Shown one piece after another: positions 10,854 through 39,289 of a DNA stretch of 64,000 nt. Each line of letters opens with the position of its first letter. Position 1 is the stretch's first letter. The DNA comes from Geodermatophilus dictyosporus. GTDB taxonomy: Bacteria > Actinomycetota > Actinomycetes > Mycobacteriales > Geodermatophilaceae. Under the pieces are notes generated by a model. It was not told the DNA's origin. It saw nothing but the letters and a program-made list of their open reading frames with translations, and searched no databases. Made by a program: the position numbers and the translations under genes. Location of the stretch: positions 248,001 through 312,000 of the forward strand of contig NZ_FOWQ01000001.1 of NCBI RefSeq assembly GCF_900115505.1, read 5' to 3'.

Positions 10854-10857
<4 letters not shown>
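9913..10857 (-). CDS. Hydroxymethylglutaryl-CoA lyase
   Basis: 314 residues. It cleaves HMG-CoA to acetyl-CoA and acetoacetate, the last step of leucine breakdown. The first HMGL-like motif, GPRDGLQNE, is at residues 18-26, with [17 protein letters not shown] next; the C-terminal signature around [20 protein letters not shown] supplies the catalytic cysteine, and [13 protein letters not shown] gives metal-ligand histidines. The GTG overlaps the stop of the carboxylase alpha gene (GTGA). The gene order alpha carboxylase, lyase, dehydrogenase is standard for actinobacterial leucine clusters. Confidence 0.94.
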
Positions 10858-14476
<3,619 letters not shown>

Positions 14477-22619: not shown

Positions 22620-23501
22620 GTGACCGACGGGGTGTGGCTGGAGGTCGCTCTCGACGGGCCGTGGGGTCCCCGGCAGCCGCTCGCACCGGTGACGCGCGAG
22701 CGGCTGGTCGAGGAGGCGGTGGCCTGCGCCGACGCCGAGGCCGCGGTGGTGCACCTGCACGCCTACGACGACGCCGGCGCGCCGCGGGAGGCCTACGAGC
22801 TCTACGCGCCGGTGTTCGAGGAGGTCCGCCGCCGCCGCGACGTCGTCTGCCACCCGACGGTGCCGATGGGGCCGGTGCCCTCGGCCGGACCGGTGCAGGC
22901 CCGGGCGCGGCACGACACCGTCGCCCGGCTGGCGCGGGCCGGGCTCGTCGAGTGGGCCGTCGTCGACCCCGGCTCGGTCGACCTGTCGACGACGGCGGAG
23001 CTGGCCGACGGCGGCGACGGGTTCCTCTACGCCGACTCCGCCTCCGACGTGCGCACCGGGCTGCAGCTGTGCGCCGAGCACGGCCTGGTGCCCAGCGACG
23101 CCGTCTACGAGCCGGGCTTCCTGCGCACCGGCGCGGTCCTGGCCGACGCGGTGCCCGGCGTGCCCCCGCCGGTCTACCGGTTCGTGTTCTCGACCGGGTT
23201 CACCTTCGGCCTGCCGCCCGCCGGGTGGGCGCTGGAGGCCCAGCTGCGGCTGCTCGGCGCCTGCGCCCCCGGCGCGCGCTGGATGGTGGCCGGCCTCGGC
23301 GTCGAGCTCGACGCCCTGTGGGACGCGGCGCTGACCCGCGGCGGGCACCTGCGGGTGGGCCTGGAGGACGCGCCGCTGGGGTGCGCCACCGGCAACGCCG
23401 AGCTGGTGGCCCGCGCCGCCCGGGCGGTGGAGGCGGCCGGCCGGCGCCTGGCTCCCGCGGCCGAGGTCCGCCGGCTCGCGAGCACCGCCTCCCCGGGGTG
23501 A
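22620..23501 (+). CDS. DUF849 protein, beta-keto acid cleavage enzyme (BKACE)-like
   Basis: 293 residues. TIM-barrel protein of the BKACE family, which splits beta-keto acids with acetyl-CoA in a zinc-dependent reaction. Family landmarks are AAVVHLHAYDDAGAPREAYELYAPVFEEVRRR (zinc histidines HLH near residue 42) and the C-terminal HLRVGLEDAPLGCATGNAELV. The usual HLHxR is HLHAY here, so the substrate-binding arginine may be replaced. GTG at 22620 has GGGGGGAG upstream. Its 3' end is part of a strong hairpin. The substrate is unknown; it is convergent with the molybdopterin oxidoreductase. Confidence 0.82.
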   Translation: MTDGVWLEVALDGPWGPRQPLAPVTRERLVEEAVACADAEAAVVHLHAYDDAGAPREAYELYAPVFEEVRRRRDVVCHPTVPMGPVPSAGPVQARARHDTVARLARAGLVEWAVVDPGSVDLSTTAELADGGDGFLYADSASDVRTGLQLCAEHGLVPSDAVYEPGFLRTGAVLADAVPGVPPPVYRFVFSTGFTFGLPPAGWALEAQLRLLGACAPGARWMVAGLGVELDALWDAALTRGGHLRVGLEDAPLGCATGNAELVARAARAVEAAGRRLAPAAEVRRLASTASPG

Positions 23502-23523
23502 GGGGGGACCCCGGGGAGGCGGT
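23484..23523. terminator. Strong bidirectional hairpin terminator
   Basis: A perfect 16-base inverted repeat (ACCGCCTCCCCGGGGT at 23484-23499, complement at 23508-23523) with an 8-base loop. It overlaps the last codons of the DUF849 gene and sits between convergent stops. Confidence 0.8.
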
Positions 23524-23529
23524 GGGTCC

Positions 23530-25659
23530 TCACGCGGGCTCGACCTGCACCCGGGTGTCGGAGAAGGTCGGCGCGTTGCCCAGGTCGGCGAAGGCGACCG
23601 GGGTGACCGCGTTGACCGTGGCCAGCGCCCGGCTGTTGCGCCGCCAGGTGCCCATCGGGCACACCGCGACGCCCGAGACGACCGCGTCGGTCACCCGGAC
23701 GCGCGCCACGAACGAGCCGCGGTCGTTGGAGACCCGCACGTCCTGCCCGTCGACGATCCCGCGCTCGGCGGCGTCCTGGGGGTGCAGCAGGACGGTCTGC
23801 TCACCCTGGACGCGCTGCTGGGCCGGCATGTCCCCGGCGCTGGAGTTGAGGTACGCGTGCGACTTGGGCGAGATCAGGTACAGCGGGTGGCGCGGGTCGG
23901 CGGGCTCCCGCGAGGGGACGTGGTGCGGCAGCGGGTCCACGGTCCCGCCGGGCTGGTGCTCGTCGGAGCCCTGCCGGAACAGCGGGACGACGAAGTTGCC
24001 GGCCTGCTCGGCGACCGACGAGCGGAACTCCGTCCGCCCCGACGGCGTCGGGAAGCCGCCGTCGGCGTGCGGCGCGTACTCGTCGCGCGAGGGCAGGTTC
24101 AGCCGTGCCCACCCGGTGCGGCGCAGCGACTCCACGGTGATCCCCTGCATCTGCGGCGCCGACCAGTCGAAGGCCTCGGCGACCATCTCCTCGTCCGTGC
24201 GCGTGAAGCACGGCTCGGTGAACCCCATCCGGGCGGCCAGCCGCCGGAAGAGCTCGGTGTTGGACACCGCCTCGCCCAGCGGCGCGACCGCGGGGGTGTT
24301 GAGCGAGACGTAGAAGTGCCCCCAGCTGAACATCACGTCGAGCTGCTCGAGCTGGGTGGTCGCGGGCAGCACGACGTCGGCGTGCCGGGCGGTGTCGGTG
24401 AGGAACTGGTCGCTGACCACCGTGAACAGGTCCTCGCGGGCCAGCCCGGCGGCGACCTTCTCCTGCTCGGGGCAGACGACCAGCGGGTTGGAGTTGTAGA
24501 CCACCAGCGCGGTGATCGGCGGGTCGAGGCCGAGCTCGCCGGTCAGCGCCCGGCCGAGCAGGTACTGGTTGACCACCCGCGTGCCCGGCGTGATCAGCTC
24601 GGGGTGCATCAGGGCCCCCCAGTTCACCGGGAAGGCCCACAGCGGCAGCTGCAGCAGCCCGCCACCCACCCGGCGCCAGGCGCCGACCAGCGCGGGCAGG
24701 CACGCGATGGTGCGCACCGTCTGCCCGCCGCCGGCGTGCCGCTCGATCGCCACGCCGATCCGGATCATCGAGGGCGCGCCGGCCGCGTACTCGCGGGCGA
24801 GCGTGCGGATGTCCGGGGCCGGGATGCCGGTCTCCTGCTCGGCCCACTCCGGCGTGTACTGCCGCACCCGCTCGGCCAGCTCCTCGAAGCCGAGGGTGTG
24901 GTCGCGCACGTACGCCTCGTCGGTGAGGCCCTCGCCGATGATCACGTGCGCCAGCGCCAGGGCGAGCGCGCCGTCGCTGCCCGGGCGGATCGGGATGTGC
25001 CAGTCGGCGCGGGCCGCCGTCTGGTGCCGGACGGGGTCGATGACGACGACCTTCGCGCCCCGCCGCTGCGCCTCGGCGATCACCGGCCACAGGTGCAGGT
25101 TGGTCGACACCACGTTGCAGGCCCAGATGACGATGTAGCGGGAGTGCACGAGGCTCTCCGGGTCGACGCCGGCCGTGGCGCCGATCGTCATCGTGTAGGC
25201 GGTGCAGGCCCCGGAGTCGCAGTAGGTGCGCTCGGTGACGGTGGCGCCGAGCCGGTTGAAGAACGGGTCGCCCACGTTGAGGCCGTTGAGGACGCCCTCG
25301 GTGCCCAGGTAGCTGACCGGCATGACGGTCTCGGGGCCGTGGCGCCCGATCGCCTCCCGGAACCGGCCGGCGATCTCGTCGAGCGCCTCGTCCCACGAGA
25401 TGCGGGTGAACTCGCCGCTGCCCTTGGGTCCGGTCCGCCGCAGGGGGTGCAGCACGCGCCGCGGGCTGTAGACCCGGTCGACGTAGTCGTTGACCTTGAC
25501 GCACAGCGCGCCGCGGGTGAACGGGTGCTCCGGGTCGCCGCGGACGGCGGTGGCGCGGCCGTCCTCGACCGTCACGAGCATCGCGCAGGTGTCGGGGCAG
25601 TCGTGGGGGCAGGCGCCGCGCACCGTGGTGGTGGCGGGGCGGTCCTCGGTGGCGGTCAT
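23530..25659 (-). CDS. Molybdopterin oxidoreductase (DMSO-reductase family, soluble)
   Basis: 709 residues. The N-terminus binds a [4Fe-4S] cluster (GACPHDCPDTCAM, with the fourth cysteine in GALCVKVNDY); the molybdopterin domains follow (ISWDEALDEIAGRF; YIVIWACNVVSTNLHLWP; the MGD dinucleotide-binding domain from RHPLYLISPKSHAYLNSS to the end, including GQDVRVSNDRGSF). No Tat signal peptide precedes the cluster, so it is cytoplasmic. ATG at 25659 has GGGAG upstream. No electron-transfer subunit is adjacent. Enzymes of this branch include thiosulfate/polysulfide-reductase-like and formate-dehydrogenase-like proteins; the substrate is not identifiable. It is divergent from an AraC regulator that may control it. 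Confidence 0.85.
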   Translation of the reverse strand: MTATEDRPATTTVRGACPHDCPDTCAMLVTVEDGRATAVRGDPEHPFTRGALCVKVNDYVDRVYSPRRVLHPLRRTGPKGSGEFTRISWDEALDEIAGRFREAIGRHGPETVMPVSYLGTEGVLNGLNVGDPFFNRLGATVTERTYCDSGACTAYTMTIGATAGVDPESLVHSRYIVIWACNVVSTNLHLWPVIAEAQRRGAKVVVIDPVRHQTAARADWHIPIRPGSDGALALALAHVIIGEGLTDEAYVRDHTLGFEELAERVRQYTPEWAEQETGIPAPDIRTLAREYAAGAPSMIRIGVAIERHAGGGQTVRTIACLPALVGAWRRVGGGLLQLPLWAFPVNWGALMHPELITPGTRVVNQYLLGRALTGELGLDPPITALVVYNSNPLVVCPEQEKVAAGLAREDLFTVVSDQFLTDTARHADVVLPATTQLEQLDVMFSWGHFYVSLNTPAVAPLGEAVSNTELFRRLAARMGFTEPCFTRTDEEMVAEAFDWSAPQMQGITVESLRRTGWARLNLPSRDEYAPHADGGFPTPSGRTEFRSSVAEQAGNFVVPLFRQGSDEHQPGGTVDPLPHHVPSREPADPRHPLYLISPKSHAYLNSSAGDMPAQQRVQGEQTVLLHPQDAAERGIVDGQDVRVSNDRGSFVARVRVTDAVVSGVAVCPMGTWRRNSRALATVNAVTPVAFADLGNAPTFSDTRVQVEPA

Positions 25660-25824: not shown

Positions 25825-26760
25825 TTGGGCGTTGCGACCGGGTCGACCGACCGGCTGGACCGGTGGCGCGACCTCATCCGCGAGCACTTCGTCGCCCTCG
25901 ACATCGACGCCGCCGACCGCGACGCCCCCTTCGCCGGGTCGGTGCGCAGCGCGCCCGTCGGGCACCTGTCGGTCGCCACGGTCGCGACCAGCGGGGCCGA
26001 CTACCGGCGCACCCGCGGCCTGGCCCGGGCCGACGACGCGGCCTACCTGCAGGTCGGGCTGGTCGCGCACGGCGCGGCGGTGCTCTGCCAGGACGGGCGG
26101 GAGGCGGTGCTGGCGGCGGGGGACTACGCGCTATACGAGACCGGGCGGCCCTTCTCCTGGCACATGGGCGGCGACGTCGGGCTGCTGGTGCTCACCTGGC
26201 CGCGCCCGAGCGTCACCCTCGACGCGGCCGGGTCGCAGCGGCTGACCGCCCGGACCATCGACGGCAGCAGCGGGCTGGGCGCCATCGTCGGGCGGGTGCT
26301 GCGGGAGCTGGTCACCGGCCCGCCCGACCTCTCACCGGCCGGCGGGGTGCGGCTGGCCGGCGAGGTGGCCGAGCTGGTCACCACCGTCGCCGCCGAGCAG
26401 GCCGCGCCGGCCACCCCGGCGGGGCCGGCCGCCGAGCAGCTGCGCCGCATCCACGGCTGGGTCGCCGAGCACCTCGCCGACCCCGGCCTCGACCCGGCCG
26501 CCGTCGCCCGCGCGCACCACGTGTCGACGCGGCACCTGCACCGGCTCTTCGCCGGGCAGGGCACCACGGTGGCCGCCCACATCCGGGCCGGGCGCCTCGA
26601 GCGCTGCCGCCGCGAGCTCGCCGACCCCCGCGGCACCGCGCCGGTGTTCGACATCGCGCGCCGCTGCGGCTTCCCCGACGCGGCCAGCCTCAGCCGCGCG
26701 TTCCGGCAGGCCTACGGCACCAGCCCGAGCGACTACCGGCGGCAGCGCCGGCCGGGCTGA
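25825..26760 (+). CDS. AraC family regulator with AraC_binding_2 domain
   Basis: 311 residues. The N-terminal AraC-binding-like domain (RLDRWRDLIREHFVALDIDAA; VLAAGDYALYETGRPFSW) is followed by a two-HTH AraC domain (residues about 220-311: VARAHHVSTRHLHRLFAGQG and FDIARRCGFPDAASLSRAFRQAYGTSPSDYRR). No ATG or GTG is available in frame near the family N-terminus; TTG at 25825 gives the right length, but its ribosome site (GAGG) is weak, so the start is uncertain. It probably senses a small organic molecule and regulates the divergent oxidoreductase. Confidence 0.85.
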   Translation: MGVATGSTDRLDRWRDLIREHFVALDIDAADRDAPFAGSVRSAPVGHLSVATVATSGADYRRTRGLARADDAAYLQVGLVAHGAAVLCQDGREAVLAAGDYALYETGRPFSWHMGGDVGLLVLTWPRPSVTLDAAGSQRLTARTIDGSSGLGAIVGRVLRELVTGPPDLSPAGGVRLAGEVAELVTTVAAEQAAPATPAGPAAEQLRRIHGWVAEHLADPGLDPAAVARAHHVSTRHLHRLFAGQGTTVAAHIRAGRLERCRRELADPRGTAPVFDIARRCGFPDAASLSRAFRQAYGTSPSDYRRQRRPG

Positions 26761-27227: not shown

Positions 27228-28043
27228 GTGACAGCGACCCAGGAACGGACCAGCAGGACCGGCGACAAGCTCTCCGGCCGGGTGGCCTTCGTCACCGGCG
27301 GGACCCGGGGGATCGGGGCGGCGATCTGTCGCAGCATGGCCGCCCAGGGCGCCGACGTCGCCGCCGGCTACAGCGGCAACGACGAGGCGGCCGAGCGGTT
27401 CCGCAAGCAGTTCTGCGAGGACTTCCCCGACCAGGGCTTCTCCGTGCACAAGGGCGACATCGGCAACCCCGACGACTGCCGGCGCACCATCACCGAGGTC
27501 ATCGAGAAGCACGGCCGGCTCGACGTCCTGGTCAACAACGCCGGCATCACCGCCGACCGCACCGTGCTGAAGATGACCGACGACGACTGGCGCCGGGTCG
27601 TCGACGTCAACCTCTCCGGGGCCTTCTACCTGTCGCAGGCCGCGCTCAAGCACATGCTCGAGCGGGGCAGCGGGCGGATCGTGATGATCTCCTCGGTCAT
27701 CGGCGAGACCGGCGGCATCGGCCAGGCCAACTACGCCTCGGCCAAGGCCGGGCTGCTGGGCCTGACCAAGACGCTGGCCCGCGAGGCCGCCATGCAGGTG
27801 CAGCGTTCCGGCAGGACCGACGGTCTCGGCATCACCGTCAACGCCGTGACGCCGGGCTACACCGCCACCGAGATGCTCGACAGCGTCCCGGACAAGGTGC
27901 TCGACGGGCTCAAGGCCAAGATCCCGCTGGGCCGGCTGGGCGAGCCGGAGGAGGTCGCCCGCGTCGTGCACTTCCTCGCCGCCGACGCCTCGGGCTACAT
28001 CACCGGGCAGGTCTGGGGGGTCAACGGCGGGCTGGACATGTAG
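27228..28043 (+). CDS. SDR beta-ketoacyl reductase (FabG/PhaB-like)
   Basis: 271 residues. Classical short-chain dehydrogenase: TGGTRGIGAAI (coenzyme loop, about residues 28-38), NNAG, catalytic Ser in MISSVIGE and Tyr-x3-Lys in ANYASAKAG. It reduces a 3-oxoacyl-CoA or -ACP with NADPH. It is slightly long for FabG, because of an N-terminal extension and a short insertion (MQVQRSGRTDGLG) before ITVNAVTPG. GTG at 27228 has CAGGAGG upstream. It is the first gene of an operon with the giant carboxylase, KAS III and hydrolase, so it probably reduces the condensation product; it could also supply hydroxyacyl-CoA to the nearby PhaC. Confidence 0.9.
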   Translation: MTATQERTSRTGDKLSGRVAFVTGGTRGIGAAICRSMAAQGADVAAGYSGNDEAAERFRKQFCEDFPDQGFSVHKGDIGNPDDCRRTITEVIEKHGRLDVLVNNAGITADRTVLKMTDDDWRRVVDVNLSGAFYLSQAALKHMLERGSGRIVMISSVIGETGGIGQANYASAKAGLLGLTKTLAREAAMQVQRSGRTDGLGITVNAVTPGYTATEMLDSVPDKVLDGLKAKIPLGRLGEPEEVARVVHFLAADASGYITGQVWGVNGGLDM

Positions 28044-28084
28044 CCGCCGCAGGACCGCTGACCACCACCGAGGGAGGGGACCGG

Positions 28085-31000
28085 GTGTTCGACCGCATCG
28101 CCGTCGTCAACCGTGGGGAGCCCGCGCTGCGGCTGATCCGCGCGGTGCGCGAGCTCGACGCCGAGCACGGGACGCGCACCCGTGTCGTCGCGCTGCACAC
28201 CGAGGCCGAGCGGCGCGCCACCTTCGTGCGCGCCGCCGACGAGGCGGTGCAGCTCGCCGACACCGGCGCGGTCAACCCCTACCTCGACCACGCCGAGCTG
28301 CGCCGGGCGCTGCGGGCCAGCGGCGCCGACGCGGCGTGGGTCGGCTGGGGCTTCGTCGCCGAGGACCCCGCCTTCGCCGAGCTGTGCGCCGAGCTCGGCG
28401 TCACCTTCGTCGGCCCGCCGCCGGAGGCCATGCGGCTGCTCGGCGCCAAGATCGAGGCCAAGGTGCTGGCGGAGAAGGTCGGCGTCCCGGTGGCGCCGTG
28501 GAGCCACGGCCCGGTCGAGGGACCCGAGGACGGCCGGCGGCACGCCGAGGCCATCGGCTACCCGCTCATCGTCAAGTCCCGCAGCGGCGGCGGGGGCCGC
28601 GGGATCCGCGTCGTCCGCGACCCGGCCGAGCTCGAGGAGGCACTGGCCCGCACGCAGGCCGAGGCGCAGCGGACCTTCGGCGACGCGAGCGTGTTCATGG
28701 AGCGCCTGGTCGAGGGCGGCCGGCACGTCGAGGTGCAGGTCATCGCCGACCAGCACGGCACCGTCTGGGCGCCCGGCGTGCGCGACTGCTCGGTGCAGCG
28801 GCGCAACCAGAAGGTGCTCGAGGAGTCCAGCTCGCCGGCGCTCACGCCGGAGCAGGACGCCGCGCTGCGCGAGTCCGCCGTCGCGCTCGTGCGGGCCGCC
28901 GGCTACGTCGGCGCGGGCACCGTCGAGTTCCTCTACCAGCCCGAGGAGCAGCTCACCACCTTCCTCGAGGTCAACACCCGGCTGCAGGTGGAGCACCCGG
29001 TCACCGAGGCCACCACCGGCCTGGACCTGGTCAAGCTGCAGCTGCACGTCGCCGCCGGCGGCCGGCTCGAGGGCACCCCGCCGCCGGCCACCGGGCACGC
29101 GGTCGAGGCCCGGCTGACCGCCGAGGACGCCGAGCAGGGGTTCGCGCCCGCCCCCGGCCGGGTGGAGCTGCTGCGCATGCCCACCGGCCCCGGCGTCCGG
29201 GTGGACACCGGCCTGAGCGTCGGCGACGTCGTCCCGCCGCAGTACGACTCCATGATCGCCAAGGTGATCGCGTGGGGCCGCGACCGCCCCGAGGCGCTGG
29301 CCCGGCTGCGCTGCGCGCTGCGCGAGACCACCGTCGTCCTGCGAGGCGGCACCACCACCAAGACCTTCCTGCTCGACCTGCTCGACCGCCCCGAGGTCGT
29401 GGCCGGCACCGCCGACACCGGGTGGCTCGACCGCACCGGCACCGGCGGCCCCCGGCCGTCGGCCAGCGCGTGGGTGGCGCTGGTGCAGGTGGCCGTCGAC
29501 CTGGCCGAGGCCGAGGAGGAGCGGGAGCGGCTCGCGTTCCTCGCCTCGGCGCGCGGTGGCCGGCCCCGGGCGCCGCACGAGGTCGGCCGCACCATCGAGC
29601 TGGGCCTGCGCGGGCAGGTGTACCGGCTGACCGTGGCCACGGTCGACCGCGACCGGCACCGGGTCGAGCTCGACGGCCGCGTCGTCGACGTCGAGGTCGA
29701 CCGGCTCGGCCCGCTGGAGACCCGGCTGGCCGTCGGCGGGCGGCGCCACGCGGTGGTCGCCGTCGAGGCTCCGGGATCCACCCTCGTCGAGGTCGACGGC
29801 GAGACCCACCGGGTCGGCCGCGACGTCGGCGGGCTGGTCCGCGCGCCCGCCCCGGCCGTGGTCGTCGCCGTCCGGGTCGCACCGGGTGACGAGGTCGAGG
29901 CCGGCCAGCCGGTCGCGGTCCTCGAGTCGATGAAGATGGAGACGGCGGTGCGGGCGCCGTTCGCCGGGCGGGTCCGCGAGGTCCGTGCCGCGGTCAACAG
30001 CCAGGTCGACGCCGGCGCCCCGCTGCTGGCCCTCGACCGCGCCGGCGGCGAGGCCGAGGAGGCCGCCGGCGAGCGGGTCGCACTGCCCGAGGACGCCACG
30101 ACGCCCGACGGCGACCCGCGCGCGCGGGCGCTGGCCCGGCTGGCGGCGCTGCGCGCGCTGGTCACCGGCTACGACGTCAGCGGCGGGCACGCCCGGCGGC
30201 TGGTCGCCGAGTACGCCGCCGCGCGCGACGAGCTCCCGGCCGACGACGCGCAGCTGCTGGCCGCCGAGCTCGACGTGCTGGTCACCTTCGCCGACGTCGC
30301 CGAGCTCTCGCGCAACCGGCCGGCCAGCGCGGAGGAGGAGGCCGACACCCAGGTCCACAGCCCCCGCGAGTACTTCCACGCCTACCTGCACTCCCTGGAC
30401 GCCGACCGGGAGGCGCTGCCGGAGACCTTCCGCGCCCGGCTGCGGCGCGCCCTGGCCCACTACGGCGTCGAGGACCTCGAGTCCTCCCCGGCGCTGGAGG
30501 AGGCCGTGCACCGGCTCTTCCTCGCCCAGCAGCGCGTCGGCGAGCAGCTGCCCGCCGTCTCCGCCCTCCTCGACCGCTGGCTGACCGCCGACCGGCTGCC
30601 CGACGGGCCCGCCCGCGGGGAGGTGGGCGAGGTGCTCGACCGGCTGGTCGTGGCGACCCAGCTGCGCCACCCCGCCCTCGGCGACCTCGCGCGCGCCGTC
30701 CGCTACCGGCACTTCGAGGAGCCGGTGGTGCGGGCCGCCCGGCAGGAGGTGCTCGATCGGGCCGCGCGGCTGCTCGACGAGCTGGACGAGGCCGGCGCGC
30801 GTGGCGACACCGCCGAGAGCATCCGGCGGATGGAGGCGCTGGTCGCCAGCCCCGAGCCGCTCATGCGCCTGCTGGCGCAGCGCCTGGGTCGCGCGACCGC
30901 CGTCCCCGACCCGGTGCTCGAGGTGCTCACCCGGCGGTACTACCGCAGCCGCAGCCTCGAGGACGTGCGCTCGACGCTGCTCGACGGCGACACCTGCGTC

Positions 31001-33577
31001 ACCGCCGACTACGACCTCGGTGGCCGGCGGCTGCACCTGCTGGCGCTGATGACCGCCGCCGCGCGGCTGCCGCAGGCGCTGGAGTCGGTGGTCGGCGCGC
31101 TGGCCGGGGTCGCCGACCCCACCCAGGCGGTCGTCGACCTCTACGTCGACTGGCCCGACCGGCCGGCCGACGACGACGAGCTGTCCGAGTCCCTGCGCGG
31201 CGTGCTCGAGGGGGTCCCCGCGCTCGGCACCGGCCGGCGGGTGACCGTCAGCGTCTGCACCCCCGACGGCGAGGTCGAGACGCTCACCTACCGCCCGGGC
31301 GAGGCCGGCCGGCTCGCCGAGGAGCGCATCATCCGCGGGCTGCACCCGCTCACCGCCCAGCGGCTGGACCTGTGGCGGCTGAAGGAGTTCGACGGCGAGC
31401 GGGTGCCCTCGCCCGAGGACACCCACCTGCTGCACGTCACGGCGCGGGACAACCCGGACGACGAGCGGTTCATCGCCATGGCCGAGGTGCGCGACCTGAC
31501 CCCGGTGCGCGACGAGAGCGGCGCGGTCGTCGGCTACCCGACGGTGGAGCGCCAGCTCACCTCCTGCCTGGACGGCCTGCGGCGCGCGCAGTCGCTGCGG
31601 CGCTCCCGGCGGCCGCTGGAGCACAACCGCGTCCACCTCTACGCGTGGCCCTCCATCGAGGTGCCGCTGGCCGAGGTGGCCGAGTTCGCGCGCACCGCCG
31701 CGCCGCTGACCGTCGGCGCCGGCCTGGACCAGATCGTGCTGCTGGCCCGCCTGCAGGAGGAGGAGGGCCGGCCGCCGCGCGAGGTGGCGGTGCGCTTCTC
31801 CAACCGCCCGGGCACCGGCGTGCGGATGCAGGTCACCGACCGCCCGAGGGAGCCGCTGCGGCCCCTGGACGACTACACCGCCAAGGTGCTCAGCTCGCGG
31901 GCCCGGGGGGCGCCCTACCCCTACGAGCTGGCCACCCTGCTGGCCGGGCCGGACGGGTCCTTCGTCGAGCACGACCTCGACGGCGGCCGGCTGGTCCCGG
32001 TGCAGCGCCCGCCGGGGCAGAACCGAGCCGGCATCGTCGTCGGGCTGGTGACCACGCCGACGGCGCGCTACCCGGAGGGCATGACGCGGGTGGCCCTCTT
32101 CGGCGACCCGACCAAGCAGCTGGGCACCGTGTCCGAGCCCGAGTGCTCCCGCGTGGTGGCCGCCCTCGACCTGGCCGAGGAGCACGGCATCCCGGTCGAG
32201 TGGTTCGCGCTGTCGTCCGGCGCCCGCATCTCGATGGACAGCGGCACGGAGAACATGGACTGGGTCTCCCGCGCGCTGCGCCGCATCATCGAGTTCACCC
32301 AGGCCGGCGGCGCGATCAACGTCGTCGTCACCGGGATCAACGTCGGCGCCCAGCCCTACTGGAACGCCGAGGCCACGATGCTCATGCACACCAAGGGCAT
32401 CCTGGTCATGACGCCGGACAGCGCGATGGTGCTCACCGGCAAGCACTCCCTCGACTACTCCGGCGGGGTGTCGGCGGAGGACAACTTCGGCATCGGCGGC
32501 TACGACCGGGTCATGGGCCCCAACGGCCAGGCGCAGTACTGGGCGCCGGACCTCACCGGCGCGCTCGACGTGCTGTTCCGGCACTACGCGCACGCCTACC
32601 GGGCGCCGGGGGAGCGCTGGCCCCGGTCGGCGCCGACCAGCGACCCGGTCGACCGCGACGTGCGCTCCTTCCCGCACAGCCACCCCGACAGCGACTTCAC
32701 CACCGTCGGTGACGTCTTCTCCGCCGAGGCCAACCCCGAGCGCAAGAAGGCCTTCGACATCCGCACCGTCATGCGGGCGGTCACCGACGCCGACCACCCG
32801 GTGCTCGAGCGGTGGGCGGGCATGGCCGACGCCGACACCGCCGTCGTCCTCGACGCCCACCTCGGCGGGCACCCGGTGACCGTGCTGGGCATCGAGTCGC
32901 GGCCGATCGTGCGGCGCGGCAGCCACCCCGCCGACGGACCCGACCAGTGGACGGCGGGCACGCTGTTCCCCCGCTCGTCGTGGAAGGCGGCGCGGGCGAT
33001 CAACGCCGCCAGCGGCAACCGCCCCCTGGTCGTGCTGGCCAACCTGTCGGGCTTCGACGGGTCGCCGGAGTCGCTGCGCAAGTGGCAGCTGGAGTACGGC
33101 GCGGAGATCGGCCGGGCGATCACCAACTTCGACGGCCCGGTGGTGTTCTGCGTGGTCTCCCGCTACCACGGCGGCGCCTTCGTCGTCTTCTCCGCCGTGC
33201 TCAACGACAACATGCAGGTGCTGGCCGTCGAGGGCTCCTACGCCTCGGTGATCGGCGGCGCCCCGGCCGCGGCGGTGGTGTTCTCCCGCGAGGTGGACAA
33301 GCGCACCGCCGCCGACCCGCGGGTGCGCGAGCTGGAGGCGGCCGTCGGGTCGGCCGAGGGCGTCGAGCAGGCCCACCTGCGCTCGCAGCTGGCGACCGTC
33401 CGCAGTGCCGTCCGCTCCGAGAAGCTCGGTGAGGTCGCCGCCGAGTTCGAGGCCGTGCACGACATCGAGCGCGCCCGGCGCATGGGCTCGGTGCACGACA
33501 TCGTCCCCGCCGCCGAGCTGCGGCCCCGCCTCGTCGCCGCCGTGGAGCGCGGGATGGAGCGAGCCGGCACGACCTGA
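28085..33577 (+). CDS. Single-chain acyl-CoA carboxylase (long-chain LCC type): BC-BCCP-CT fusion
   Basis: 1830 residues. The biotin carboxylase part (about 1-450) has RIAVVNRGEPALRLIRAV, the ATP-grasp glycine loop KSRSGGGGRGIRVV and [18 protein letters not shown]; a biotinyl domain follows with biotin at Lys617 (ESMKMET); a long central region (650-1250) leads to a carboxyltransferase (about 1300-1830) with GAQPYWNAEATMLM, LANLSGFDGSPES and GSYASVIGGAPAAAVVFSREV. This layout is the single-chain long-chain acyl-CoA carboxylase known from mycobacteria, which makes 2-carboxyacyl-CoAs. GTG has GAGGGAGGGG upstream. It lies 41 bases after the SDR and 25 before the KAS III gene, in one operon. Chain length is inferred from the family. 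Confidence 0.9.
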   Translation: MFDRIAVVNRGEPALRLIRAVRELDAEHGTRTRVVALHTEAERRATFVRAADEAVQLADTGAVNPYLDHAELRRALRASGADAAWVGWGFVAEDPAFAELCAELGVTFVGPPPEAMRLLGAKIEAKVLAEKVGVPVAPWSHGPVEGPEDGRRHAEAIGYPLIVKSRSGGGGRGIRVVRDPAELEEALARTQAEAQRTFGDASVFMERLVEGGRHVEVQVIADQHGTVWAPGVRDCSVQRRNQKVLEESSSPALTPEQDAALRESAVALVRAAGYVGAGTVEFLYQPEEQLTTFLEVNTRLQVEHPVTEATTGLDLVKLQLHVAAGGRLEGTPPPATGHAVEARLTAEDAEQGFAPAPGRVELLRMPTGPGVRVDTGLSVGDVVPPQYDSMIAKVIAWGRDRPEALARLRCALRETTVVLRGGTTTKTFLLDLLDRPEVVAGTADTGWLDRTGTGGPRPSASAWVALVQVAVDLAEAEEERERLAFLASARGGRPRAPHEVGRTIELGLRGQVYRLTVATVDRDRHRVELDGRVVDVEVDRLGPLETRLAVGGRRHAVVAVEAPGSTLVEVDGETHRVGRDVGGLVRAPAPAVVVAVRVAPGDEVEAGQPVAVLESMKMETAVRAPFAGRVREVRAAVNSQVDAGAPLLALDRAGGEAEEAAGERVALPEDATTPDGDPRARALARLAALRALVTGYDVSGGHARRLVAEYAAARDELPADDAQLLAAELDVLVTFADVAELSRNRPASAEEEADTQVHSPREYFHAYLHSLDADREALPETFRARLRRALAHYGVEDLESSPALEEAVHRLFLAQQRVGEQLPAVSALLDRWLTADRLPDGPARGEVGEVLDRLVVATQLRHPALGDLARAVRYRHFEEPVVRAARQEVLDRAARLLDELDEAGARGDTAESIRRMEALVASPEPLMRLLAQRLGRATAVPDPVLEVLTRRYYRSRSLEDVRSTLLDGDTCVTADYDLGGRRLHLLALMTAAARLPQALESVVGALAGVADPTQAVVDLYVDWPDRPADDDELSESLRGVLEGVPALGTGRRVTVSVCTPDGEVETLTYRPGEAGRLAEERIIRGLHPLTAQRLDLWRLKEFDGERVPSPEDTHLLHVTARDNPDDERFIAMAEVRDLTPVRDESGAVVGYPTVERQLTSCLDGLRRAQSLRRSRRPLEHNRVHLYAWPSIEVPLAEVAEFARTAAPLTVGAGLDQIVLLARLQEEEGRPPREVAVRFSNRPGTGVRMQVTDRPREPLRPLDDYTAKVLSSRARGAPYPYELATLLAGPDGSFVEHDLDGGRLVPVQRPPGQNRAGIVVGLVTTPTARYPEGMTRVALFGDPTKQLGTVSEPECSRVVAALDLAEEHGIPVEWFALSSGARISMDSGTENMDWVSRALRRIIEFTQAGGAINVVVTGINVGAQPYWNAEATMLMHTKGILVMTPDSAMVLTGKHSLDYSGGVSAEDNFGIGGYDRVMGPNGQAQYWAPDLTGALDVLFRHYAHAYRAPGERWPRSAPTSDPVDRDVRSFPHSHPDSDFTTVGDVFSAEANPERKKAFDIRTVMRAVTDADHPVLERWAGMADADTAVVLDAHLGGHPVTVLGIESRPIVRRGSHPADGPDQWTAGTLFPRSSWKAARAINAASGNRPLVVLANLSGFDGSPESLRKWQLEYGAEIGRAITNFDGPVVFCVVSRYHGGAFVVFSAVLNDNMQVLAVEGSYASVIGGAPAAAVVFSREVDKRTAADPRVRELEAAVGSAEGVEQAHLRSQLATVRSAVRSEKLGEVAAEFEAVHDIERARRMGSVHDIVPAAELRPRLVAAVERGMERAGTT

Positions 33578-33602
33578 CCACCCCGACCTGAGAGGACACG
33601 GC

Positions 33603-35564
33603 GTGAACGCGTTCGTCCTGAACCGGCACGGCCGCATGGTGTTCCCCTCGAACATCATGCCGGAGCTGGACTTCTCCACCATGGAGACGCTCGAGCAGCT
33701 CGACAGCGTCATCCGGCGTGACTTCGAGACCAAGGCCCCCAGCGGCACCGAGATCCTCGAACGGGTGCGCACCGGCGCCTACGAGAGCCGGTACGACCTG
33801 ATGCGGGACCTCGCGCTCAACCTGTTCTGGGCCAACCGCTTCTCGATCACCATGTACGACAAGCGGCCGACCCGCTGGGGCGACCTCCCGCGGACCCGCC
33901 CTGACGTCTTCCTCCCCGTCCTGGAGCCCTGGGAGGACGGCGAGGCGAAGGTCACCGGCGTCCAGGAGGCCTACCCGACGCTGCCGTCACGGTGGAACGA
34001 GGGCTGCGAGGACCGGATCTTCCAGATCCTGTTCGACGTCTTCGCCAACCGGCGCAACCACGCCTCCACGCTGCCGGCGGTCAAGCCCACGGTCGCGGAG
34101 TTCCTGGAGCAACCCGGCGCGCTGACCTTCCGGCTGCGCGGCTACGACCCCGACTTCCCGGTCTACGAGTACACCGACATCCTCGACGTCTCCGAGGACG
34201 TCCCCGAGCTCGAGGCGCTGCACCGCTGGGCCATGGTGCTGCACAACCAGTACCCGTGGGACCGGTCGCAGGTGGAGCTGGCCGACGCGAGCCAGATGCG
34301 CGACGACGACTGGGTGGTCGCCTTCCACCCGCGGGACAAGGAGGTGCGGGCCTTCCTGCGCCGGCTGCGCGCCGGCGATGCGCCGCGGCAGGTCGCCGGA
34401 CCGCGGGAGTCCCGCCCGCCCGTGCGGCCCTACCCCGAGCTCGACGTGCGCCGGAGGTTCTCGGTGCAGCCACGGATCGAGGCACTGGCCGCGGTGCACG
34501 GCGACCAGGTGTGCAGCAACGACGACCTGATCCGCAACACCGCCTACAACTGGTCGCCGATGAGCGCCGAGGAGATCTCGGCCAAGACCGGCATCGAGCA
34601 GCGCGAGTACAGCTCGCTCCCGCTGGAGGACCTCGCCCTGCAGGCCGCCGAGGCCGCGCTGGAGAAGTCCGGGCGGCAGCCGGAGGAGATCGGCGCCGTG
34701 CTGGTCTGCACCTGCACCAGCTCCCGGCTCATCCCGTCACTGGCCACCTACCTCTGCGGCCAGCTGGGCATGCACCAGGTCTACGCCGCGTACGACGTCA
34801 TCGCCGCCTGCGCCGGGATGCCCTACGGGGTCGCCGACGCCGTGCGGATGCTGCAGGAGGTCGAGCGGCCGGTCCTCGTCGTCTGCGTGGAGAAGTTCTC
34901 CGACAAGATCGGCAACGTCCGCACGTCGCGGATGATCTTCGGGGACGGCGCGGCGGCGCTGGTCGTCGGCCCGGCCCCCGAGGGCGCCGAGGGCGACATC
35001 GACTACATGAAGACCTACGCCAGCGGCCCGGCCAGCGAGGTGAACTCGATCCTCTGGCCCAACCCGGAGTTCGACAACAACATCACGGTGTTCGGCCCGC
35101 AGGTGAAGGCGCTGGCCGGCCGCTACCTGTCCCAGATGATCGACGAGCTGGGGCAGCTGCCGGCGCCCGACGGCCGCGACGGGTCGCTGATGGACGCGAT
35201 CGACCTGATCGTGCCGCACCAGGCGAACAAGACGATGGTCATCGGCCTGGCCGAGCGCGCCGGCCTCACCGCCGACCAGCTCTACTTCAACATCGAGCAG
35301 GTGGGCAACACGTCCTCGGCGAGCATCCCGCTGGCCATCCACGACGCGGTCCGCGACGGGGTGATCAGCGGGCCGGTGCGGGTCTTCGCGCCCGGGTTCG
35401 GGGCGGGCGCCGTGGCCGGGTACGCGGTCATGCGGGTCGACCCGGCGGTGGTCGCCGTCCAGACGGCGTCCGTGCCGCACGAGCAGGGGGCCGACCTGCC
35501 GGCCCCGACGGCCTCGGCGCAGACCGGGTCGGCGTCCGAGGGGATGCAGGAGGCCTTCGGCTGA
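33603..35564 (+). CDS. KAS III-like condensing enzyme with an N-terminal domain of unknown function
   Basis: 653 residues, about 320 more than FabH. The C-terminal part (about 290-625) is a thiolase-fold condensing enzyme with the triad Cys403 (DVIAACAGMPYG), His539 (IVPHQANK) and Asn569 (EQVGNTSSASIP), spaced as in FabH. The N-terminal 280 residues (from VNAFVLNRHGRMVFPSNIMP to WVVAFHPRDKEVRAFLRRL) match no domain I can name; they are rich in aromatic and charged residues and show no membrane segment. GTG at 33603 has GAGAGG upstream. The enzyme should join acyl-thioesters; being encoded next to the carboxylase, it may use 2-carboxyacyl-CoA as extender. The last 35 residues look disordered. 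Confidence 0.87.
   Translation: MNAFVLNRHGRMVFPSNIMPELDFSTMETLEQLDSVIRRDFETKAPSGTEILERVRTGAYESRYDLMRDLALNLFWANRFSITMYDKRPTRWGDLPRTRPDVFLPVLEPWEDGEAKVTGVQEAYPTLPSRWNEGCEDRIFQILFDVFANRRNHASTLPAVKPTVAEFLEQPGALTFRLRGYDPDFPVYEYTDILDVSEDVPELEALHRWAMVLHNQYPWDRSQVELADASQMRDDDWVVAFHPRDKEVRAFLRRLRAGDAPRQVAGPRESRPPVRPYPELDVRRRFSVQPRIEALAAVHGDQVCSNDDLIRNTAYNWSPMSAEEISAKTGIEQREYSSLPLEDLALQAAEAALEKSGRQPEEIGAVLVCTCTSSRLIPSLATYLCGQLGMHQVYAAYDVIAACAGMPYGVADAVRMLQEVERPVLVVCVEKFSDKIGNVRTSRMIFGDGAAALVVGPAPEGAEGDIDYMKTYASGPASEVNSILWPNPEFDNNITVFGPQVKALAGRYLSQMIDELGQLPAPDGRDGSLMDAIDLIVPHQANKTMVIGLAERAGLTADQLYFNIEQVGNTSSASIPLAIHDAVRDGVISGPVRVFAPGFGAGAVAGYAVMRVDPAVVAVQTASVPHEQGADLPAPTASAQTGSASEGMQEAFG
35548..35553 (+). 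promoter_or_regulatory. Shine-Dalgarno that points to a CTG start
   Basis: A perfect AGGAGG inside the end of the KAS III gene lies exactly 7 bases before CTG at 35561, in the frame of the next protein. No ATG, GTG or TTG in that frame lies within reach. Confidence 0.6.
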
Positions 35565-36445
35565 GCAGTCGGACGGGCCACACCACGGTCCGCGCTGCCG
35601 ACGGCACCCGCCTGCGCGCCTGGAGCAGCGACGGGGATGGTGTCCCGGTCCTGCTGTGCAACGGGCTGGGCGCGCCGGCGGCGGCGTGGCCGCGGCTGGT
35701 CGGCCCGGACAGCGGCTTCCGGGTGGTGACCTGGTCCTACCGCGGGCTGGCCGGCTCGCAGCGCCCGGCCGACCGGGACCGGGTGCGGGTGGAGGACCAC
35801 GCCGACGACGCCCGTGCCGTGCTCGACGCCTTCGGCCTGTCCTCGGCCACGGTCGTGGGCTGGTCGCTCGGGGTCAACGTGGCGTTCGAGCTCGCGCTGG
35901 AGCAGCCCGACCGGGTGCGGTCGCTGCTGGCCGTCGCCGGGGTGCCCGGCGGGTCGTTCTCCGCGCTGTTCGCGCCGCTCGGCGTGCCCCGGCGGCTGCG
36001 GACCCCGGCGGGGCGGCTGAGCAGCCGGCTGCTGCCGCTGGTCGGGCCGCTGCTGCCGGTGTTCGTGGGCAGCCTGCCGCCGTGGCCGGAGCTGCTCACC
36101 GCGGACGGCGTGCGCGGCCCGGCGCGGGAGGCGGGGCACCCGGCGGCCCTCTACACGGTGCTGCGCGAGTTCTCCCGGCACGACTGGCGCTGGTTCCGGC
36201 ACCTGGTGCTCGCCGTCGCCGAGCACGCACCGCTGGACGTCGGGGCGGTGCGCTGCCCGGTCACCTTCGTGGCCGGCAGCCACGACGCGCTGGTCGACGT
36301 CGCCGACGTCGCGGCCGCGGCGCGGACCGTCCCCGGCGCCCGGCTGCGCACGGTCCCGGCCACCCACTTCGTGCCGCTGCAGTACCCGCGGCTGATGGCG
36401 GCCGAGCTGCGGGCCCTGGTGGACCGGGAGCGCCGGGCGTCCTGA
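35561..36445 (+). CDS. Alpha/beta hydrolase (probable CTG start)
   Basis: 294 residues. The fold landmarks are VPVLLCNGLGAPAAAW (oxyanion region), nucleophile elbow VVGWSLGVN with serine, acid in FVAGSHDALVD and histidine in VPATHFVPLQ. It is probably an esterase or thioesterase acting on a lipid product of this operon. The frame has no ATG/GTG/TTG before the conserved N-terminal strand; CTG at 35561 overlaps the KAS III stop (CTGA) and follows AGGAGG by 7 bases, so CTG initiation or re-initiation is likely. The next GTG would delete about 45 residues, including the first conserved motif. The stop is 4 bases from that of the convergent phaC. Confidence 0.82.
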   Translation: MSSRTGHTTVRAADGTRLRAWSSDGDGVPVLLCNGLGAPAAAWPRLVGPDSGFRVVTWSYRGLAGSQRPADRDRVRVEDHADDARAVLDAFGLSSATVVGWSLGVNVAFELALEQPDRVRSLLAVAGVPGGSFSALFAPLGVPRRLRTPAGRLSSRLLPLVGPLLPVFVGSLPPWPELLTADGVRGPAREAGHPAALYTVLREFSRHDWRWFRHLVLAVAEHAPLDVGAVRCPVTFVAGSHDALVDVADVAAAARTVPGARLRTVPATHFVPLQYPRLMAAELRALVDRERRAS

Positions 36446-36449
36446 CCGG

Positions 36450-38198
36450 TCAGGTGCGGGCGGGCACCCGGTCGCGGACGTAGGAGCCGGGCGCCGGCTC
36501 CAGCGGCGGGTGCACCGCGCTGCCGAGGGTCTCCGGCGCGGGCACCTCGTCGCCGGAGCGCTCGATCGCCCACTCCGACCAGGGCTCCCACCAGCTGCCG
36601 GTGTGCTCCTCGGCCGCCGCGCGCCAGGCGTGCGCGTCCGGCCCGGGCTCACCGCCGGTCCAGTAGCGGGCCTTGGGGTTGCCCGGCGGGTTGACCAGGC
36701 TCTGGATGTGGCCGCTGGAGCTCAGCACGAAGGTGCTCGGTCCCGACAGCAGCTGGGTGGTCCGGTAGCAGCCGTGCCACGGGGTGAGGTGGTCGGTGAG
36801 CGCGCCGGTGACGAACGTGGGCACGGTGATCCGGCTCAGGTGCACCGGCGTGCCCAACACGGTGAGCGCCCCGGGCCGGACCAGCGCGTTGGCGGAGAAG
36901 ATCTCCAGGAACTGCTCGTGCAGCTTCGCCGGCAGGTTCGTGCCGTCGGCGTTCCAGGCGAGGATGTCGAACGCGGGCGGGTCCTCGCCCATCAGCCACT
37001 GGCGCACCAGGTAGTTGAAGACCAGGTCGTCGGGGCGCATCCAGGTGAACACCGAGCCCATCTGCCGGGCGGTGATGACGCCCTGCCGGGTGGAGTTGCG
37101 CCGGGCGACGTCGAGCAGCCGGGGACCGGAGAAGGCGCCCAGCGGGGCGCGGCTGGCGAAGTCGAGCAGGGTCACCGCGTAGCCGGCGGCGGCCACCCGC
37201 TCGTCGCCCTGGGCGGCGAGGTGGTTGAGCGCCGTCGTCATCACCTGGCCGCCGGCGCACAGGCCCAGCGTCGTGACGTCGGGGGAGCCGGTGACCTCGC
37301 AGGCGGCGTCGACGGCGCTCAGCACGCCGCCGGAGTAGGTGTCGAGGTCCCACTCCGACTGCGCCTTCGTGGGGTTGCGCCAGCTGATCATGAAGACCTG
37401 CAGGCCCCGGCTGACCGCGTACTCGACCAGGCTGCGGCCCGGGCGGAGGTCGAGGAAGTAGAAGCGGCCGATCGGCGGCGGCACGATGACCAGCGGGCGG
37501 GTCCGGACCCGCGGGGTCGACGGCGTGTACTGGATCAGCTCGACGATCTCGTCGCGGTACACGACGGCTCCTGGGGTGACGCCGAGGTCCTCGCCGACGG
37601 TGAAGGCGCTGCGGTCGACCTGGGACGGCATCCCGCCGTTGTGCACCAGGTCGGAGAGCGCGTTGCGGGCGCCGCGGACCAGGCTGCGGCCGGCGGTGTC
37701 GAAGGCCCGCTTGAGCGCAGCCGGGTTGCCCAGCAGGGTGTTGGTGGGGGCCATGGCGCTGGTCAGCGCGTTGAAGAGGAAGCGCACCTGCTCGACCTCG
37801 CGCCAGTCGGCCCCGCCGGCCGCGAAGTCCTCGACCAGGCGGTCGAGCGCCCCCGTGGTGGCCAGGTAGGACTGGACCAGCCGCCGGTAGCCCGGGTTCA
37901 GCGACCAGGCGGGGTCGGCGAAGCGGGCGTCCTTCGGCGACGGGGCGATCTCGTCGGTGCCGCGCAGGATGCGCAGCGCGTCGCGCCCCAGCCGCACGGC
38001 CTCGCGCGCGAGCGGCCGCGGCTGCGCGAAGGTGGCCGCCACGCCGCGCACCATGCCCCGCGTGGTGGGCAGGGTGACCGGCTCGCCACCCTCGACCGGG
38101 ACGCCCTGTGGGGTGTCCCGCGGTGCCCGCTCCGCGTCCGCGGCTCGCCGGCCGATCGCCGGGCGCGGCCGCGGCGGTGTCGTCGTCGTGGTGGTCAC
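36450..38198 (-). CDS. phaC: Poly(3-hydroxyalkanoate) synthase, class I-like PhaC
   Basis: 582 residues, the length of class I synthases. The PhaC N-terminal domain (FADPAWSLNPGYRRLVQSYLA) is followed by an alpha/beta hydrolase core with the lipase-like box GLCAGG, catalytic Cys314, the aspartate in TGALTDHLTPW and the histidine in SSSGHIQSLVNPPGNPK. It polymerises 3-hydroxyacyl-CoA into storage polyester at granules. GTG at 38198 is chosen for GAGGGGG upstream; ATG at 38222 has no ribosome site. It follows oleD on the same strand after 77 bases. No PhaA or granule-associated protein gene is in the window; the SDR at 27228 could supply monomer. Confidence 0.93.
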   Translation of the reverse strand: MTTTTTTPPRPRPAIGRRAADAERAPRDTPQGVPVEGGEPVTLPTTRGMVRGVAATFAQPRPLAREAVRLGRDALRILRGTDEIAPSPKDARFADPAWSLNPGYRRLVQSYLATTGALDRLVEDFAAGGADWREVEQVRFLFNALTSAMAPTNTLLGNPAALKRAFDTAGRSLVRGARNALSDLVHNGGMPSQVDRSAFTVGEDLGVTPGAVVYRDEIVELIQYTPSTPRVRTRPLVIVPPPIGRFYFLDLRPGRSLVEYAVSRGLQVFMISWRNPTKAQSEWDLDTYSGGVLSAVDAACEVTGSPDVTTLGLCAGGQVMTTALNHLAAQGDERVAAAGYAVTLLDFASRAPLGAFSGPRLLDVARRNSTRQGVITARQMGSVFTWMRPDDLVFNYLVRQWLMGEDPPAFDILAWNADGTNLPAKLHEQFLEIFSANALVRPGALTVLGTPVHLSRITVPTFVTGALTDHLTPWHGCYRTTQLLSGPSTFVLSSSGHIQSLVNPPGNPKARYWTGGEPGPDAHAWRAAAEEHTGSWWEPWSEWAIERSGDEVPAPETLGSAVHPPLEPAPGSYVRDRVPART

Positions 38199-38275: not shown

Positions 38276-39289
38276 TCAGCGGCTCGGGGGAAGACCCGTC
38301 CGCCGTGACACCGGCGACACCGGGCCGGCGGCGTACCAGGCCGCCAGCCGAGCGAAGCCCTCCTCGAGGGACACGGCGGGCCGCCACCCGAGGGCGGCCC
38401 GGGTGCGGCGCTGGTCGAACCAGTGCGCGGTGGCCAGCTGCTCGGCGAGGAACCGGTTCAGCGGCGGCACCGAGCGCCGCCGGGTCGCCTCCCAGACCGC
38501 CTCGACCGCGGCGCCGGCCACCCAGGCCGCGACGAAGGGCACCCGGCGGCGCGGCCCGGGGAGGCCCGCGGCCCGGCACAGCCGGCCGAGGACCTCGGCG
38601 ATCGGGCGCGGCTCCCCGTTGGAGACGACCAGGGCCTCGCCGTGCACCGAGCCGCACGCGTCCACGGCGGCGACCAGGGCCGCCGCGGCGTTGTCGACGT
38701 AGGTGGTGTCGACCAGCGCCGCGCCCGAGCCGACGACCGGCAGCCGGCCGCCCCGCGCGCGCTCGACGATGCGACCGACCAGCTGGGTGTCGCCCGGGCC
38801 CCACACGAGGTGGGGCCGGACGGCGAGCACCGCCAGGTCGGGGGAGTCGGCGGCCAGCGCGTCGAGCTCGGCGATCGCCTTGCTGCGCGAGTAGCGGCCG
38901 CGGGCCCGCCGCGGGTCGGCCGGCTCGGCGCCGACCCCCGCCAGCGCCGTCCCGGCGTGGGCCACCGACGGGGAGGACACGTGCACCAGCCGGCCCACGC
39001 CGGTCGCCCGGCAGGCCGCGACGACGGCCCGGGTGCCCTCGACGTTGGCGTGCCGGTACTCCGCCCACGGCCCGGTCACGTCGACCTTGGCGGCCAGGTG
39101 CAGCACGGCGTCCTGCCGGTGGGCCGCGCGCCGCACGACGGCCGGGTCGGCGACGTCGCCGAGCACCTCGGCGCACGGCAGCCCCGACGGGCGGCGCTGC
39201 AGGACGGTGACCTCGTCGCCACGCTCGAGCAGCGCGGTGGCCGTGGCCCGGCCGAGCATGCCGCTGGCGCCGGTGACCAGCACCCTCAC
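38276..39289 (-). CDS. oleD: OleD-type NADPH-dependent 2-alkyl-3-ketoacid reductase
   Basis: 337 residues. Extended SDR of the 3-beta-HSD/epimerase type: VRVLVTGASGMLGRATATALL at the N-terminus, VHVSSPSVAHAG for the serine, and YSRSKAIAE for the Tyr-x3-Lys pair. OleD reduces the 2-alkyl-3-keto acid made by OleA to the 2-alkyl-3-hydroxy acid that OleC converts to a beta-lactone. The GTG overlaps the oleBC stop (GTGA), which together with the OleA and OleBC neighbours supports OleD over a sterol dehydrogenase. Confidence 0.88.
   Translation of the reverse strand: MRVLVTGASGMLGRATATALLERGDEVTVLQRRPSGLPCAEVLGDVADPAVVRRAAHRQDAVLHLAAKVDVTGPWAEYRHANVEGTRAVVAACRATGVGRLVHVSSPSVAHAGTALAGVGAEPADPRRARGRYSRSKAIAELDALAADSPDLAVLAVRPHLVWGPGDTQLVGRIVERARGGRLPVVGSGAALVDTTYVDNAAAALVAAVDACGSVHGEALVVSNGEPRPIAEVLGRLCRAAGLPGPRRRVPFVAAWVAGAAVEAVWEATRRRSVPPLNRFLAEQLATAHWFDQRRTRAALGWRPAVSLEEGFARLAAWYAAGPVSPVSRRTGLPPSR

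Follow-up and report, generated by a model that had tools for sequence, protein, structure and literature searches.

A carboxylase and extended KAS III gene block beside a PHA synthase gene in Geodermatophilus dictyosporus, and its possible role in polyhydroxyalkanoate precursor supply

Described routes to PHA precursors and the gene block

Polyhydroxyalkanoate (PHA) synthesis is usually taught as a sequence of thiolase, reductase and synthase, with side routes leading in from beta-oxidation and fatty-acid synthesis. The 64,000-nucleotide stretch of the Geodermatophilus dictyosporus genome analysed here (contig NZ_FOWQ01000001.1, positions 248,001 to 312,000; G+C about 76%), hereafter the window, holds a block of genes for a short-chain dehydrogenase/reductase (SDR), a multidomain acyl-CoA carboxylase, an extended beta-ketoacyl-acyl carrier protein (ACP) synthase III (KAS III) and an alpha/beta hydrolase, beside a gene for the PHA synthase PhaC. 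We propose, with a probability of roughly 0.65, that this block supplies PHA precursors through malonyl-CoA instead of through a beta-ketothiolase. The nearest described counterpart is engineered: as set out in the excerpted part of PMC10530661, the NphT7-PhaB-PhaC route to polyhydroxybutyrate runs on the same logic, a KAS III-type condensation of acyl-CoA with malonyl-CoA replacing the thiolase and being followed by reductase and PHA synthase. Compared with NphT7 as described there, the window set differs in being natural and clustered, in having its own carboxylase and in a condensing enzyme that is twice as long. Coexpression of FabH and phaC in Escherichia coli for PHA is recorded by a title cited in PMC8231600, and Rhodococcus jostii RHA1, according to the portion of PMC2667194 consulted, makes a 3-hydroxybutyrate/3-hydroxyvalerate polymer with PHA synthase genes that form no cluster with those for thiolase or reductase. 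No description of a native cluster of acetyl-CoA carboxylase (ACC), KAS III and PhaC was recognised among the papers listed from the open-licence PMC literature, subscription literature being mostly outside that scope.

After re-annotation of the window by codon bias, the block begins with the SDR, a 271-aa beta-ketoacyl reductase of FabG/PhaB type by its NCBIfam matches (27228-28043), which is followed after 41 bases by the 1830-aa carboxylase (28085-33577), after a further 25 bases by the 653-aa extended KAS III (33603-35564), and then by the 294-aa hydrolase (Pfam Abhydrolase_1; 35561-36445), all on the + strand. A preliminary description of this DNA had reported these four packed genes and the two gaps correctly and had given the last overlap as 2 bases; the CTGA shared by the KAS III and hydrolase genes is an overlap of 4 (35561-35564). 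That description also stopped one gene short, for PhaC (36450-38198, - strand), convergent with the block and separated from the hydrolase end by 4 bases, belongs with it. The CTG start of the hydrolase at 35561 is probably real; among nine relatives with a hydrolase behind the KAS III gene, CTG-AGC stands in the same place in six and ATG-AGC/T at the equivalent residue in two, L007 being ambiguous. A scan for promoters and terminators was uninformative, with 0 promoter-like sites, and 1 terminator-like site against 0.8 expected.

In the proposed pathway the carboxylase would convert acetyl-CoA to malonyl-CoA, and perhaps propionyl-CoA to methylmalonyl-CoA; the extended KAS III would load an acyl-CoA primer on Cys403 and condense it decarboxylatively with a malonyl thioester to give a 3-ketoacyl-CoA, which the SDR would reduce to the (R)-3-hydroxyacyl-CoA that PhaC would polymerise. 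Where the equilibrium of a thiolase is unfavourable, the loss of CO2 would drive the synthesis, and the hydrolase would probably mobilise the polymer or clear thioesters. The analysis itself establishes the genes, their domain architecture, the conserved catalytic residues, the recurrent linkage to PhaC and the lack of a thiolase match in the loci; we infer every one of these reactions, together with CoA rather than ACP as the carrier, the length of the primer and what the KAS III N-terminal domain does. If the proposal is true, nature too uses the decarboxylative type of condensation for which engineers turned to NphT7, and soil actinobacteria make building blocks of a storage bioplastic from malonyl-CoA, not via the textbook thiolase; this could help explain PHA in actinobacteria without clustered phaA-phaB and would offer ready-made parts for bioplastic production. 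A fuller version, comprising a natural thiolase-free PHA pathway, a dedicated single-chain ACC of eukaryotic type, a new family of condensing enzymes and an N-terminal domain that couples the condensation to the carboxylase or the granule, has in our judgement about an even chance of being right.

Carboxylase, condensing enzyme and reductase

Pfam places biotin carboxylase (BC), biotin carboxyl carrier protein (BCCP), ACC_central and carboxyltransferase (CT) in that order in the single chain of the carboxylase, which carries the biotin motif ESMKM and has the architecture of the actinobacterial homodimeric multidomain ACCs; the leading PDB matches of its C-terminal two thirds are eukaryotic ACCs. 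Over the full length, it shares 58-59% identity with a Saccharopolyspora hirsuta and an S. soli protein, both probably orthologues of SACE_4237 of Saccharopolyspora erythraea. In the excerpted part of PMC6491548, SACE_4237 is presented as the first multidomain homodimeric ACC from a bacterium, accepts acetyl-CoA and propionyl-CoA, is the only studied member cited for this activity, and is contrasted with long-chain carboxylases, in which CT is N-terminal and BC-BCCP C-terminal. The window carboxylase, with its central region, has the opposite domain order to the latter, and a long-chain carboxylase identity is rejected on that comparison of its Pfam domains with the excerpt. Its likeness to SACE_4237, a single chain of about 200 kDa with the order BC-BCCP-central-CT, is drawn from architecture and from the S. 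hirsuta and S. soli proteins; it differs in adjoining an extended KAS III, an SDR and PhaC, whereas the S. hirsuta and S. soli genomes are without the extended KAS III. Besides one full-length copy of the multidomain ACC, the Geodermatophilus genome contains several further genes for biotin carboxylases, so the housekeeping role need not fall to that copy. The window encodes another acyl-CoA carboxylase, of two subunits, at 10854-14476 (- strand), where a biotin carboxylase/BCCP gene adjoins a carboxyltransferase gene.

The preliminary description had the carboxylase act on a long-chain acyl-CoA, which the KAS III would then condense on the way to alpha-branched beta-hydroxy lipids. The enzyme classes formally permit such a path, and its general order, carboxylation feeding a KAS III condensation that is followed by beta-keto reduction, is retained here. 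Its long-chain substrate and its lipid product find no support, given the short-chain homodimeric ACC architecture (by the same excerpt of PMC6491548) and the linkage to PhaC, and no acyl-AMP ligase family recurs in at least three KAS III loci; we consider the lipid model very improbable. It was to fall if the carboxylase took only short acyl-CoAs, and on that count it is weakened, by homology only. The accompanying statement that the set has no assigned product overlooks the adjacent and recurrently linked PHA synthase.

The KAS III part of the condensing enzyme spans residues 291-612 of 653. Its Cys403, His539 and Asn569 align with the catalytic residues of FabH and are kept in 20/20 KAS III homologues, and Foldseek places the KAS III part of an AlphaFold model on FabH; the full-length model has a moderate mean predicted local distance difference test (pLDDT) score of 72.7 and was used for the KAS III fold only. 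Fold and Cys-His-Asn set are therefore shared with FabH, but the enzyme adds a conserved N-terminal domain of about 290 residues (33603-34472, + strand), scores below the NCBIfam FabH cut-offs (182.9 versus 249 and 143.6 versus 292.1 bits) and, at 653 aa, is no stand-alone FabH of about 320 aa. The extended KAS III of the preliminary description is supported, the extension being N-terminal. Across the N-terminal domain the window copy is 52-92% identical to 15 others. No useful match to this domain was found in Pfam (searched up to E 10; best E 0.076), among PDB sequences (best E 0.37) or among PDB folds (best E 0.85; the model searched has a mean pLDDT of 79), and the extension has no match in the plasmid collection; none of the libraries searched annotates this conserved protein family. 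A role in docking, whether to the carboxylase or the PHA granule, is a guess.

The identity of PhaC is supported by a PhaC_N domain (PF07167; 183.1 bits, above cut-off), by PDB sequence matches that are PHA synthases, and by a Cys-Asp-His set kept in 14/14 sequences. Its scores on the class models, 588.5 bits for class II and 497.8 bits for class I, are both below cut-off. The better class II score is one of two features that would suit a medium-chain variant of the pathway, in which the KAS III extends longer acyl-CoA primers by one malonyl unit for a class II-like PhaC. The other is the position of the FabH Phe87 gate, which is Ile in 18/20 and Met in 2/20 of the KAS III homologues, within a Leu-Ile-Pro stretch that is the same in Vibrio cholerae FabH2, crystallised with octanoyl-CoA. 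The excerpt of PMC8231600 links Phe at the FabH gate to short primers, so that with the Ile or Met found here the extended KAS III may take short or longer primers. We regard the medium-chain variant as unlikely: the PhaC proteins of two further loci (L015 and L029) score best as class I, below cut-off, despite the same KAS III gate, and all PhaC class scores lie below cut-off.

For the SDR, the best NCBIfam match is the acetoacetyl-CoA reductase model TIGR01829 (282.7 bits, cut-off 302.1, not reached); a second acetoacetyl-CoA reductase model, NF042966, is missed by more (181 bits, cut-off 436), and the cut-off of one FabG subfamily, NF009466, is exceeded (240 versus 222). By sequence, the carrier may thus be CoA or ACP. 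That FabG score, the FabH-type catalytic residues of the KAS III and the fact that S. erythraea cannot do without SACE_4237, whose malonyl-CoA goes into fatty acids (PMC6491548, in the part consulted), would all fit ordinary fatty-acid synthesis, with ACC, FabH-like and FabG-like enzymes starting de novo synthesis and PhaC merely a neighbour. We nevertheless hold this to be quite unlikely, since the extended KAS III is missing from 67/112 genomes of the window's family and hence not essential there, since further biotin carboxylase genes exist in the genome, and since PhaC goes with the KAS III loci, not with carboxylase loci generally. As to the hydrolase, the preliminary description had let it release the product, a role that the PHA reading does not require; in L041, the best-scoring model for a hydrolase that adjoins PhaC is a PHA depolymerase, below cut-off.

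Linkage to PHA synthase in other genomes

With the carboxylase as query, 80 loci were fetched with flanks of up to 10 kb, several of them ended by contig ends; the counts given in this section cover related genomes, several are metagenome-assembled genomes (MAGs) with uncertain labels, and the PhaC class calls lie below curated cut-offs. The extended KAS III is present in 19/80 of these loci. PhaC accompanies it in 13 of the 19, versus 0 of the 61 loci without it, and an SDR of at least 63% identity occurs in 16/19, the other 61 having distant SDRs only (28-37%). All five genes stand together in eight of the 19, and L005, L011 and L035 are without the hydrolase. In a tree of the carboxylases (74 rows from the 80 loci and the window, seven without a long enough called gene having been dropped), 19 of the 20 KAS III-linked sequences fall in one 28-row side, L041 lying elsewhere; the KAS III label needs 6 changes, versus 17.8 in shuffles, and 0/500 shuffles were as low.

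For the window's family, 112 genomes include 45 with the extended KAS III, 48 with the ACC and 44 with both (Fisher 2.8e-25, kinship ignored); the exceptions are one genome with KAS III and no ACC match (G467) and four with the ACC alone (G427, G431, G432 and G502). The ACC lies within 4 kb of 41 of the 47 KAS III copies in the family, and PhaC within 10 kb of at least 33, where a rough random placement gives about 0.6. PhaC itself is found in 45/45 family genomes with the KAS III versus 49/67 without it (Fisher 3.8e-5). The conservation check that the preliminary description had suggested is thereby answered: SDR, carboxylase and KAS III recur jointly in other genomes, beyond chance.

Outside close relatives the set persists in varying gene orders. 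The 44 genomes of the carboxylase loci include nine with the extended KAS III; Rhodococcus-labelled genomes have it in 1/13 (SMB37), and the genomes of Saccharopolyspora, Kribbella and Amycolatopsis that were examined are without it. In L015 and L019 (labelled a MAG of the window's family), ACC-KAS III faces SDR-hydrolase-PhaC-HTH-SDR, HTH denoting a small helix-turn-helix regulator; the order is KAS III, hydrolase, PhaC, HTH, ACC in L029, it is ACC, KAS III, SDR, HTH, PhaC, hydrolase in L041, and it is PhaC, HTH, KAS III, ACC, plus a distant SDR, in L140. L141, L162 and L163 also keep the set, in orders other than that of the window. Of 30 genomes searched for PhaC_N, 8/10 with the KAS III score above cut-off, as do 6/20 without it. 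The two misses are Micrococcaceae, in which the SDR orthologue (62-63%) immediately adjoins a PhaC of class III-like type (L155: 278.8 bits, below the cut-off of 365.3), with an HTH orthologue close by; in both, the KAS III-ACC pair is located apart from this PhaC-SDR pair. An even sample of the class has the extended KAS III in 4/394 genomes, the Geodermatophilus genome included, and the three fresh ones all have PhaC and an ACC match. In G594 and G621 the KAS III is flanked by PhaC and SDRs at distances of up to about 3 kb, the ACC being about 15 kb off in the former and on another contig in the latter; in the split assembly G612, one contig holds PhaC with a KAS III fragment, and a second holds KAS III together with a partial SDR and a fragment of an ACC. 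Linkage across these gene orders, families and PhaC types indicates that the condensing enzyme is kept with PhaC of differing classes. Weak N-extension matches in two genomes of a phylum sample (G256 and G287; L086 and L087) were rejected, their frames being, as we take it from the sequence, Lon protease, so that the extension is real in 2, not 4, of the 396 genomes of that sample.

Away from the window's close relatives, PhaC repeatedly has the HTH regulator next to it, in L015 (19889-20257), L019, L029, L041, L140, L141, L155 and L156; the regulator may control PHA genes, and no homologue of it was found in the window.

Like a canonical phaCAB locus, the window has a PHA synthase and a PhaB/FabG-type reductase; it differs in the beta-ketothiolase gene, which was found in 0/38 loci (36 of them KAS III loci, the other two the PHA loci of the Micrococcaceae, some genomes being counted twice). 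The query was one thiolase of the Geodermatophilus genome at E 1e-10, which recovers all seven above-cut-off thiolases of that genome, every one of them outside the locus. Thiolase supply from inside the locus was dropped on this basis.

Several points weigh against a malonyl-CoA route to PHA precursors. The seven thiolases elsewhere in the genome mean that acetoacetyl-CoA need not come from the block, whose protein activities are all predicted only, and the SDR scores above a FabG cut-off but below those for acetoacetyl-CoA reductases. PhaC is common in the family regardless (94/112 genomes), and 6/19 of the KAS III-containing carboxylase loci are without it. For 14/47 family KAS III copies PhaC is beyond 10 kb or not among the matches listed; 12 of these copies were read directly, and one has PhaC, about 15 kb off. 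The KAS III copies of L142 (with an SDR), L143 and L144 are without PhaC or ACC in the stretch read. Finally, the window PhaC lies on the opposite strand to the block, behind ole-like genes with which it may be cotranscribed.

The PhaC neighbourhood and other features of the window

These ole-like genes form a set at 38276-42869 (- strand), in line with PhaC and on its strand. They encode a KAS III-type OleA (41832-42869), a fused hydrolase-AMP ligase OleBC (39286-41835) and an OleD-like reductase (38276-39283), the scores on the ole-specific models being below cut-off; L035 and L073 too carry homologues close to the carboxylase. The position of PhaC behind them suggests that its transcription may be tied to theirs. 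The genome has two more PhaC-like genes elsewhere, one adjoining a hydrolase and one, class III-like, adjoining a distant SDR. ARAGORN called a tRNA-Ile at 40009-40082 (- strand), inside the OleBC frame; the call is probably false, because Rfam finds no RNA in the window.

Upstream of the block, at 22620-25659, a gene for a beta-keto acid cleavage enzyme (BKACE) adjoins a molybdopterin oxidoreductase gene, with an AraC-type regulator next to them (25825-26760). Further along, at 56171-57742 (+ strand), the window encodes a DUF6297 protein of 523 aa.

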